This document shows, in pieces, positions 23,789 through 43,226 of a stretch of DNA of 44,911 bases (position 1 is its first letter; each line of letters opens with the position of its first letter). This DNA is from an uncultured Elusimicrobia bacterium. Lineage in GTDB: Bacteria; Elusimicrobiota; Elusimicrobia; Elusimicrobiales; UBA9959. The notes under the pieces are model-generated. The model did no database searches and was not told the origin of the DNA. It saw only the letters and a list, made by a program, of their open reading frames with translations. The stretch is from NCBI GenBank assembly GCA_903889965.1, contig CAISZM010000053.1, forward strand, positions 1-44,911. Direction: 5' to 3'. The position numbers and the translations under genes are program-made.

Positions 23789-24321
23789 AATATTTTCCGA
23801 CTCCACCTCCGCCGCCTAATCTTAAAATCGCACTTCTCTCAGATTTTAACTTATTACCACGTTCGGCCGCCGCAAGCGTAATGGAGCGGGTGGCTGGAGG
23901 TCAGGGTTCTGAAGGCCCGTTAGCGTGAGGGCGGGGTGTTACCCTGAGCGCCCGTTGCGGAAAGGCGTGGACTTGACCGCAGTCCTGCGCCGCCACGGAC
24001 ACTGTAGCGCACCCGCCGTCAAAGTCTGGCGGGGGGAAACCGACGCAAGCGTGGACCCCGCGGGACACTGTAGTGTTTCCTCTTCCCGGGCGAGTGGACT
24101 TTGCTTCCCGCCTTTACTACGGACACCGTGGCGGTTTCGCGCAGCGAAATCCGACAGAGCAGGGTAATATCCCGCACGACCCCTGGTGTAGCCGACGCGG
24201 TGCCTGAAGAACCTTGACCTTCAGCCAGGACCCGCGACCCCCCGTTCCGTATCATAAGCCCCCCCTTATTTCCTAAAATATAGGCGGACGCTTTTCATTC
24301 CGACTTACCAAGGATAAAAAT
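23789..24321. other. 533-base intergenic region holding a structured element
   Basis: There is no convincing protein gene. Most of the gap is the folded unit at 23891-24227, described separately. The flanks (23789-23890, 24228-24321) are unstructured; the right flank ends in the gpmI ribosome site (AAGGA). Open frames here owe their length to the GC content and sub-repeats. Confidence 0.6.
23891..24227 (+). ncRNA. Candidate large structured RNA (or MITE-like foldback element)
   Basis: The ends pair: TGGCTGGAGGTCAGGGTTCT (23891-23910) with AGAACCTTGACCTTCAGCCA (24208-24227), 20 continuous pairs including two G-U. A tandem G-A/G-A mismatch follows (23911-23912 with 24206-24207), then AGGC with GCCT. 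On the minus strand the wobbles would be A-C clashes, so a plus-strand RNA fits better. Inside are hairpins GGGCG-GGGT/ACCC-CGCCC (23929-23953), GGCG-GGACT/AGTCC-CGCC (23964-23991), CCCGCC/GGCGGG (24012-24033), ACACT/AGTGT (about 24066-24077) and an 8-bp stem over 24133-24151. I could not match it to RNase P RNA, tmRNA, 6S or SRP RNA. A non-autonomous mobile element with decayed inverted ends is the main alternative. No promoter or terminator is obvious. Confidence 0.45.
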
Positions 24322-25875
24322 ATGGATAAGAAAAAAATTCTTCTCATCGTGCGCGACGGCTGGGGTATGGCCAAGCCCGACAAGTTCAACGCGGTGGACA
24401 ACGCGAAGACCCCTAATATGCGCCGCTACCTCAAAACCTATCCCAACTCCGTCCTCGAACCCGCCGGCGAAGCCGTGGGACTGCCCAAAGGCTACCAGGG
24501 CTCCTCCGAAGTAGGCCACCTCAATATGGGCGCCGGCCGCATAGTCATACAGGAACTAAAGCGCATAATGGACATGATAGAAGAAGGCACCTTTTTCAAA
24601 TGCCCCGCCCTCGCCGCGGCCATAAATAACGCCGTAAAGAACAATTCCGCCCTGCACCTGATGGGCCTGGTACAGGACGAGGGCGTGCATGCCCACCAGG
24701 ACCACCTCTACGCCCTGATGCGGCACGCCAAAAAAGCCGGTATAAAGCAAGTCTACGTGCACTTCTTCTCCGACGGCCGCGACACCCCCCCGCGCAGCGC
24801 CCTCTCCTTCCTTAAAATGCTGGAGGAAGTTATCCAGGAGGTGGGCGTGGCCAGCATAGGCACACTGATGGGCCGCTACTACGCCATGGACCGCGGCGAA
24901 AAATGGAAGCTCACCGACCAGGCCTACAACGCCATCACAAAAGCCGAGGGCGCAAAGGCCAGAACCGCGGAAGCGGCGATCAGCGGCGCTTACTCGACCC
25001 TCAAGAACCCCAACGGCCTGCCCATAGTGGACGAATACATCCCCCCGACCATAATCGGGGACTACCCCGGCATGAAGGACGGCGATTCCGCAGTGCACTT
25101 CAATTTCCGCCAGGACCGCGCCATACAGCTCACCAAAGCGTTCGTGGAAGACTCTTACCCGGGCAGCCGCTGGAAAAAGATGGACGTCGTATACTGCGGC
25201 CTCACCCGCTACTACGACGAATTCAAGTTCAGCGCCCTGCCCCCGATGGACGAAGGCGGCGGCATGGAGAACCTTTTGGGCCAGGTGATCTCCGAAAGCG
25301 GCCTGAAACAGCTGCGCCTGGCCGAGACGCAGAAATTCAAGCACGTCACCTCTTTTTTCAACGGGAAGCGCACCGAGCCCTACGCCAACGAGGACCAGGT
25401 GGAGATCAAGGGAACATGGGACCCCTCCAGCTTCGGCGAACACCCGGAGATGAACGCCCCCGAGGTCTGTGAACGCGCGCTTAAAGAAATAGCCTCGGAA
25501 AAATACGAATTTATCCTCGTCAATTTCGCGAACGGCGACATGGTCGGCCACACCGGTATATACGAAGCCGCGGTGCGGGCCGTGGAAACAGTGGACCTCT
25601 CCGTGGGAAAACTTGTGGACGAGGCCCTTAAGCACGACTACACCGTCATGGTCACCTCCGACCACGGCAACGCCGAGGAGATGTGGGACTATAAGCTAGG
25701 CATGCCGAAGACCGCCCACACCACCAACCCCGTGGAGTTCATCTACATCTCAAAAGAGGCCGCGGCTGTAAATCTGCGCCCGCACGGCATCCTTTCCGAT
25801 ATAGCCCCCACGGTGCTCGCGGTAATGGGCCTCCCGCAGCCGGCGGACATGACCTCAAAGTCGCTGATAGCATAA
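24322..25875 (+). CDS. gpmI: 2,3-bisphosphoglycerate-independent phosphoglycerate mutase
   Basis: 517 residues, the normal length. Metal-site Asp12 is in LIVRDGWG; the phosphorylated Ser62 lies in GSSEVGHLNMGAGR (60-73); HAHQDHL, FSDGRDTPP, HFNFRQDRAIQ, FANGDMVGHTG and TSDHGNAEEM supply the other substrate and Mn ligands in the family order. It interconverts 3- and 2-phosphoglycerate in glycolysis and gluconeogenesis. An AAGGA site precedes the ATG. Immediately after the stop comes a copy of the AAGATT foldback repeat. Confidence 0.97.
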   Translation: MDKKKILLIVRDGWGMAKPDKFNAVDNAKTPNMRRYLKTYPNSVLEPAGEAVGLPKGYQGSSEVGHLNMGAGRIVIQELKRIMDMIEEGTFFKCPALAAAINNAVKNNSALHLMGLVQDEGVHAHQDHLYALMRHAKKAGIKQVYVHFFSDGRDTPPRSALSFLKMLEEVIQEVGVASIGTLMGRYYAMDRGEKWKLTDQAYNAITKAEGAKARTAEAAISGAYSTLKNPNGLPIVDEYIPPTIIGDYPGMKDGDSAVHFNFRQDRAIQLTKAFVEDSYPGSRWKKMDVVYCGLTRYYDEFKFSALPPMDEGGGMENLLGQVISESGLKQLRLAETQKFKHVTSFFNGKRTEPYANEDQVEIKGTWDPSSFGEHPEMNAPEVCERALKEIASEKYEFILVNFANGDMVGHTGIYEAAVRAVETVDLSVGKLVDEALKHDYTVMVTSDHGNAEEMWDYKLGMPKTAHTTNPVEFIYISKEAAAVNLRPHGILSDIAPTVLAVMGLPQPADMTSKSLIA

Positions 25876-43032: not shown

Positions 43033-43226
43033 AGGCATGGGATTGCCCTTGTTCCACGCGGCTTGCAGCACCGGCTAACGCAGGGATGGTGTTCAAAACC
43101 AGGGTCTCGCACATCGTGCTCGCCCTTCCCCGCCTCGCCCTCCGCGCTACGCAAGCGTCGGGTTCCGGCAGGGTTTTGCCCCCCATCCCTGCGTCAGCCT
43201 CTATTAATAAAGGCAACCCCATGCCT
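43033..43226. repeat. Foldback element with two nested long stems
   Basis: Outer arms AGGCATGGGATTGCC (43033-43047) and GGCAACCCCATGCCT (43212-43226) pair with one mismatch. The nested arms GGCTAACGCAGGGATGG (43073-43089) and CCATCCCTGCGTCAGCC (43183-43199) also pair with one mismatch, and CAAAACC (43094-43100) pairs with GGTTTTG (43172-43178). The A-C mismatches within these paired arms would be G-U on the minus strand, so a minus-strand RNA would pair throughout those segments. A GCAC-ATC-GTGC hairpin lies at the tip (43109-43119). It sits between two minus-strand genes (lnt and the deacetylase) and includes ACGCAAGCGT, also present in the 23891-24227 element. It may be an mRNA-processing structure, a ncRNA or a MITE remnant. 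Confidence 0.55.

Follow-up and report, generated by a model that had tools for sequence, protein, structure and literature searches.

The block upstream of gpmI is, judged by sequence comparison, a composite and not one large RNA: a type-A hairpin element whose top has been replaced by a type-B element, which itself carries three small inserts. It lies in a stretch of 44,911 nucleotides from an uncultured Elusimicrobia bacterium (hereafter the window, to which all coordinates refer), and comparison with copies in the same genome places its outer limits at approximately 23882–24242. We consider it probable that REPIN/MITE-like hairpin elements from two sister families of Elusimicrobiota, non-autonomous and dispersed, are nested in the block, and that the fold of one of their strands is selected.

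An earlier note, made from the letters of this DNA, had reported that the two ends of the block form 20 continuous pairs, and these were confirmed in the letters as TGGCTGGAGGTCAGGGTTCT (23891–23910) with AGAACCTTGACCTTCAGCCA (24208–24227). The two G-U deviations that it placed on the plus strand are G23897-T24221 and G23904-T24214, the sole non-Watson-Crick pairs among the 20, and the tandem G-A that it described next is GA (23911–23912) opposite GA (24206–24207), followed by further pairs. The minimum free energy of the plus strand of the block was −171.4 kcal/mol (z = −4.93, with none of 100 shuffles as good) versus z = −2.44 for the minus strand (1 of 100 shuffles as good), which means that the block folds beyond chance and better on the plus strand. 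The note had also failed to fit the block to known RNA classes and had suggested a search of Rfam, with which this agrees: no family matched the elements in the window at the gathering threshold, no match was obtained for 23800–24330 with E up to 10, and at ten further-compared loci no family matched the A or B copies with E up to 1. The two tRNAs and one sub-threshold ar35 match found at the ten loci with relaxed E lie away from the A and B copies.

When the genome of the window (G000, 2.24 Mb, assembly 90% complete) was searched by BLASTN with positions 23850–24270, 43 matches were returned, consisting of the window itself and of pieces at approximately 25 other sites; the block is therefore made of repeats. 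The 5′ arm of the type-A element (23882–23918, plus strand), which belongs to its outer stem P1 and includes the 20-bp arm, showed 97% identity to an intact A copy and was found in other copies of the same genome. The 3′ arm of the same element (24185–24242, plus strand) showed 88% identity to the intact copy, and this piece also recurs elsewhere. Between the two arms, a type-B-bearing block (23919–24184, plus strand) occupies the place of 54 nt in the intact type-A copies, which are approximately 150 nt long and are present elsewhere in the genome. The type-B pieces within it (23920–23965, 24012–24052, 24073–24094, and 24157–24184) are contiguous at locus L024, and type B is uninterrupted at all three compared sites (L024, L011, and L028). 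The covariance model of B (R1, built from 21 B copies) matched the window at 23926–24119 with 43.2 bits (E 2.1e-6).

The three inserts separate these pieces. Insert D1 (23966–24011, plus strand), a member of the GTGGAC...GGACACTGTAG family with a pattern match at 23967–24007, lies in an unpaired junction of B; it is missing from the three compared sites and present in L009. Insert D2 (24051–24073, plus strand), assigned to the same family by a pattern match, lies in the hairpin loop of B helix P4, where 10 of 101 B copies (a set that excludes the window copy) carry a D unit. Insert C (24095–24156, plus strand, 62 nt) starts as a D-type unit, with the D pattern at 24094–24131, and is located in the internal loop between P1 and P2 of B, on its 3′ side; it is found elsewhere in the genome at L014, L016, L017, and L018 and has GAG on either side, as seen by eye. 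The D pattern, by whose construction D units end in GTRG, had 21 matches in the genome, three of them within the block, versus 1 for a reversed control pattern, although one of the 21, on C1, looks fortuitous. The window contains one more type-A element, distinct from the block, at 43056–43217 (minus strand), where the covariance model of A (R2, built from 31 A copies) matched at 43079–43192 with 84.4 bits; this copy belongs to alignments A5 and A6 and hence to R2 itself.

Both families are widespread in the phylum. R1 and R2 each matched 52 of 340 Elusimicrobiota genomes, and 31 and 32 of the 32 genomes of the genus, respectively; the phylum-wide copy numbers are lower limits, with ten candidates scored per genome. 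In the genome of the window, R1 gave 27 matches, corresponding to 20 B places and 7 opposite-strand shadows, and R2 gave 32 matches at 31 places, among which the interrupted A of the block is not included. With 51 A and B places in this genome and 101 A matches in G150, copy numbers fall in the range of tens to hundreds that is typical of REP-type repeats. The relatives were represented by 80 regions from 11 genomes, taken from the top of the 52 R1-matching genomes; 7 opposite-strand shadows were removed in this search too, and two duplicate rows came from L178. L203 and L205 have the same flank and are probably a single place represented at the ends of two contigs, so that the 101 B copies probably stand for 100 places. 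Alignment A2 contained 21 of 39 B copies, copies with large inserts, truncated flanks, or many indels being left out, and alignments A5 and A6 of type A contained 39 and 31 of 47 copies, respectively. A 21-base B pattern was found in 42 stretches of the GTDB genome contigs, 38 of them in Elusimicrobia MAGs; in the four matches outside Elusimicrobiota (L115, L116, L120, and L126), the sequence that follows is unlike B, and these were rejected. B was absent from viral contigs (searched with the exact pattern), plasmids, and phages. Among the listed papers that mention Elusimicrobia together with palindromic sequences or riboswitches, none had a title on such elements.

The two families conserve structure while their sequence changes. 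B consists of an outer stem P1 (19 pairs as counted), a G-A internal loop, P2, and the hairpins P3 and P4, and A consists of 25 pairs in five helices; the arms often have common edges (GGAGGGG ... CCCCGACTNNGCATCTCGCGG). Across 21 copies of B, 97.7% of the cells pair and double changes occur at 17 of 44 pairs, while in A they occur at 20 of 25 pairs. The covariation of B was 0.289, for a structure that included a 5-pair pseudoknot which later failed, versus 0.080 for shuffled alignments and at most 0.045 for slid structures; the corresponding values for A were 0.501, 0.160, and at most 0.124. In both families, covariation exceeded all 500 shuffles and all slides, although one of five measures for A (further pair types) was within the shuffle range, being reached by 113 of the 500. 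The short inner helices of A and helices P2 and P3 of B covaried as well. The rejected pseudoknot, TTGCG with the P4 loop CGCAA, was nearly invariant in the first alignment but had no covariation support; pairing is full in 66 of 103 rows (two of which are duplicates), and 22 rows with TTGGG do not pair.

The outer stem of B is unlike between most copies, yet still paired, and the core is almost invariant. In 31 copies compared without a fitted alignment, the P1 arms of one copy formed 85.7% Watson-Crick and 5.7% G-U pairs, versus 58.2% and 8.3%, respectively, for arms of different copies; this ungapped count includes copies with small stem indels, which lowers pairing. Ten pairs of B copies had identical cores; two to five compensated P1 pairs and no broken one were seen in six of them (all within G125), and the remaining four showed no difference in P1. 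The earlier note had named loss of the pairing in homologues as a result that would speak against its RNA reading, and this was not what we found, since the stems vary and yet pair.

The changes are strand-biased. Over the 101 copies of B, P1 contained 105 G-U cells versus 22 A-C cells, and all helices together contained 115 versus 31. Although the model used to fit the alignment is tolerant of G-U, the same excess is seen in the ungapped count of P1 (33 versus 10, with a ratio of approximately 1.6 in the cross-copy control). Where both flanking genes are opposed to B, G-U and A-C cells numbered 30 and 4 over all helices; the bias is therefore a property of the element itself, and host transcription does not account for it. 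These counts cover B only because the alignment of the outer stem of A in A5 is imperfect (A-C cells in two P1 columns). Folding was more stable for the sense strand in 93 of 100 B copies and 43 of 47 A copies, compared with 38 of 98 control stretches; neither the cell counts nor the strand-energy counts are independent, as the copies share core and ancestry. With the double changes given above for both families, the strand-biased and pairing-preserving change that the earlier note had read from the two ends of the block holds across copies. G-T pairs are tolerated in single-stranded DNA as well, and the strand bias therefore does not separate RNA from single-stranded DNA.

Recent copies are dispersed within genomes. 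G130 has, at different places, three B copies that match each other exactly over 131 nt and lie in a unit of approximately 340 nt that includes a reversed A arm. In G150, four doublets are 89–92% identical over approximately 330–370 nt with unrelated flanks, and arms within 200 nt of each other were divergent in 24 of 24 cases, with gaps of mostly 62–70 nt (counted with 101 A matches and 7 B copies). Neighbors within 200 nt among the 51 places of the genome of the window were likewise divergent in 8 of 8 cases, with gaps of 31–169 nt; many A and B arms are solitary. The nearest neighbor of a B copy lay in the same genome for 51 of 101 copies (7.8 expected), and grouping by genome was only moderate, with mean B distances of 0.174 within genomes versus 0.193 between them. 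No target-site duplication was evident by eye around eight doublets of G150. The earlier note had held that many near-identical copies with target-site duplications in one genome would refute a new RNA; many copies in one genome were indeed found, but their stems are varied, and the only candidate duplication was the GAG/GAG around insert C.

Inserts of at least 12 nt were present in 11 of the 101 B copies, all in unpaired parts and mostly in the P4 loop, where ten of the inserts are D units, and no B helix was broken by an insert of this length in the 101 copies. The first insert of L175 (the same as L009) was placed by the model in the P3 loop and by eye in the junction before P3, like D1. 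B lay between perfect outer palindrome arms of at least 11 nt in 4 of 97 copies, versus 0.19 expected from cross-copy controls. In one MAG (L097, L101, L106, L109, L127, and L129), B copies carry a palindrome of approximately 70 nt (AAAAAGGTGCCAGCC...) in the P3 loop, and many of the MAG's contigs terminate at a B copy, where the repeats seem to break the assembly; the P3 loop of the B copy at L131 is a run of N. A further candidate nested unit is the small hairpin GTGTCGCTTCGCTCCAC, which was seen repeatedly within or next to A and B elements (L272, L285, and L211). We also considered whether the tails of A and B are the two ends of an ordinary transposon, but among tail-to-tail A/B pairs sought up to 4 kb apart in the studied loci only five were found (264–411 bp apart, none over 411 bp), and this idea was set aside. 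The search for a mobilizing enzyme covered the Y1 family in the genome of the window: no Y1 transposase (PF01797) was detected in this 90% complete genome, while the control search found Y1 in 5 of 14 genomes.

The main reading of the earlier note, a single large new RNA class of approximately 340 nt upstream of gpmI, accounts for the good fold of the whole block; we regard it as hardly credible, as the block consists of separately repeated pieces. Where the note saw one RNA of 337 nt in the size class of RNase P or GOLLD, there is a nested composite with A and B arms of approximately 130–150 nt, many per genome. Its link to gpmI was not supported either. The reading frame, which we call gpmI following the note, spans 24322–25875 (plus strand), and a homologue was found in 31 of the 32 genomes of the genus. 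A conserved promoter-like motif, ATTTCCTAAAATATAGG (24268–24284, plus strand), separates the element from gpmI, and ATTTYNTARAATA was present upstream of gpmI at 28 of the 29 genus loci having at least 60 nt upstream. The block sits upstream of this motif and not in the gpmI leader. In an R1 search of 30 gpmI loci, B was upstream of the gene only at the locus of the window and downstream of it at four others; no other locus among the 26 of the genus with at least 150 nt upstream had B upstream, and the A core was upstream at 4 of the 26. A riboswitch or leader RNA of gpmI would lie between promoter and start codon and recur there, which is not what these loci show. Another reading is that A and B are cis-acting RNA elements of transcripts, controlling stability, processing, or termination between the genes of operons. 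B copies were inside called genes in 0 of 101 cases, according to a simple gene caller, and many were within approximately 50 nt of the flanking genes; in tandem gene pairs, 57 were sense and 22 antisense, the others being in convergent (11) or divergent (5) pairs or having one neighbor missing (6). Several species also share gene pairs that hold B, and in the two most populated cases (4 and 6 loci) every copy is sense; such sharing could reflect a local function. However, the sense excess shrank to 37 versus 21 after shared sites were collapsed (p = 0.048), the 11 copies in convergent pairs and the position of the window copy upstream of the promoter-like motif do not fit, and the G-U bias is independent of host transcription. 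B cores at shared sites were hardly more alike (mean distance 0.163) than other copies of the same genomes (0.174). At six gene pairs, B points in opposite directions in different species (L174 versus L242/L244, L237 versus L218/L256, L188/L258, L193/L198, L190/L248, and L177/L196), which may reflect a hot site, an inversion, or replacement. A cis-acting role in transcripts is possible for part of the copies, and as a general explanation we consider it unlikely.

Strong covariation, the almost invariant core of B, and the many copies would also be expected of a set of small RNA genes, each independent and transcribed from its own promoter. No promoter-like conservation was detected in the base composition of the 45 nt that precede the arms (67 of A and 64 of B), no Rfam relative was found, and one element is nested inside the other, so that we regard such genes as very improbable. 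A different possibility is that no folded strand is selected at all: template switching at palindromes, in which one arm is copied onto the other, would keep the arms complementary, and the cores would be alike since the copies are young. The paired changes of P1 in copies whose core stays identical are what this predicts. Template switching nevertheless predicts no strand bias, against the 105 G-U and 22 A-C cells observed, and covariation extends to the short inner helices of A and to P2 and P3 of B; this explanation therefore appears improbable to us. Under the preferred reading, nested hairpin elements with one selected strand, each arm would combine a P1 that is free in sequence but bound to pair, a conserved folded core, and often common edges. 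A and B would spread within genomes, settling in intergenic positions and in the unpaired regions of other hairpins, each other included, and selection would act on the fold of one strand, most likely via a trans-acting factor that recognizes folded RNA or single-stranded DNA. We infer this factor, as we do the kind of folded strand (RNA or single-stranded DNA) and a role of loops as targets and not just as tolerated places.

A REPIN is by definition an inverted doublet of REP sequences. Compared with REPINs and REP-RAYT systems (PMC3116915, PMC3733652, and PMC2817692), A and B are similar in their many extragenic palindromic copies per genome, their inverted doublets, and their dispersal within genomes. 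They differ from REP and REPIN palindromes of 20–40 bp in having arms of approximately 130–150 nt with several helices and a conserved core, and from REPINs in that the outer stem is free in sequence and the genome of the window has no Y1 match; their arms start with GGAGG or GGCGGAG, while the tag used for comparison with REP is GTAG/CGTC. Bacterial MITEs and other small mobile repeats (PMC10969869 and PMC2229807) resemble A and B in being short, non-coding as far as seen, and intergenic, and A and B have the long terminal inverted arms expected of MITEs. Unlike those of MITEs, the terminal arms of A and B vary from copy to copy while remaining paired. IS1397 sits in the loops of palindromes. 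Like such insertion sequences targeting REP palindromes (PMC1525189), the present units are elements within hairpin repeats, but the nested elements are here themselves hairpins of approximately 20–150 nt. A and B share covariation, tandem G-A motifs, and strand-biased wobble pairs with the structured RNAs of Rfam, and differ from the Rfam families in lacking a covariance-model match.

Descriptions of small dispersed repeats in bacteria usually present them as simple palindromes, whereas A and B are multi-helix folds with strong covariation, found in a little-studied phylum with approximately one hundred copies in the best of the genomes examined, in strictly divergent doublets where neighbors exist, and nested. 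More tentatively, A and B may be the first examples of a class of structured mobile elements spanning the lineage, each a pair of folded RNA or single-stranded DNA arms with a core read by a protein and a P1 that drifts while paired, which would move without RAYT, prefer hairpin loops, and build nested stacks. The block also cautions that what looks like a well-folding 'large RNA' in a single stretch of sequence may be made of stacked repeats. The many differing stems per lineage offer a test bed for selection on RNA versus single-stranded DNA in repeats, and the two families point to a putative mobilizing or binding factor in Elusimicrobiota.
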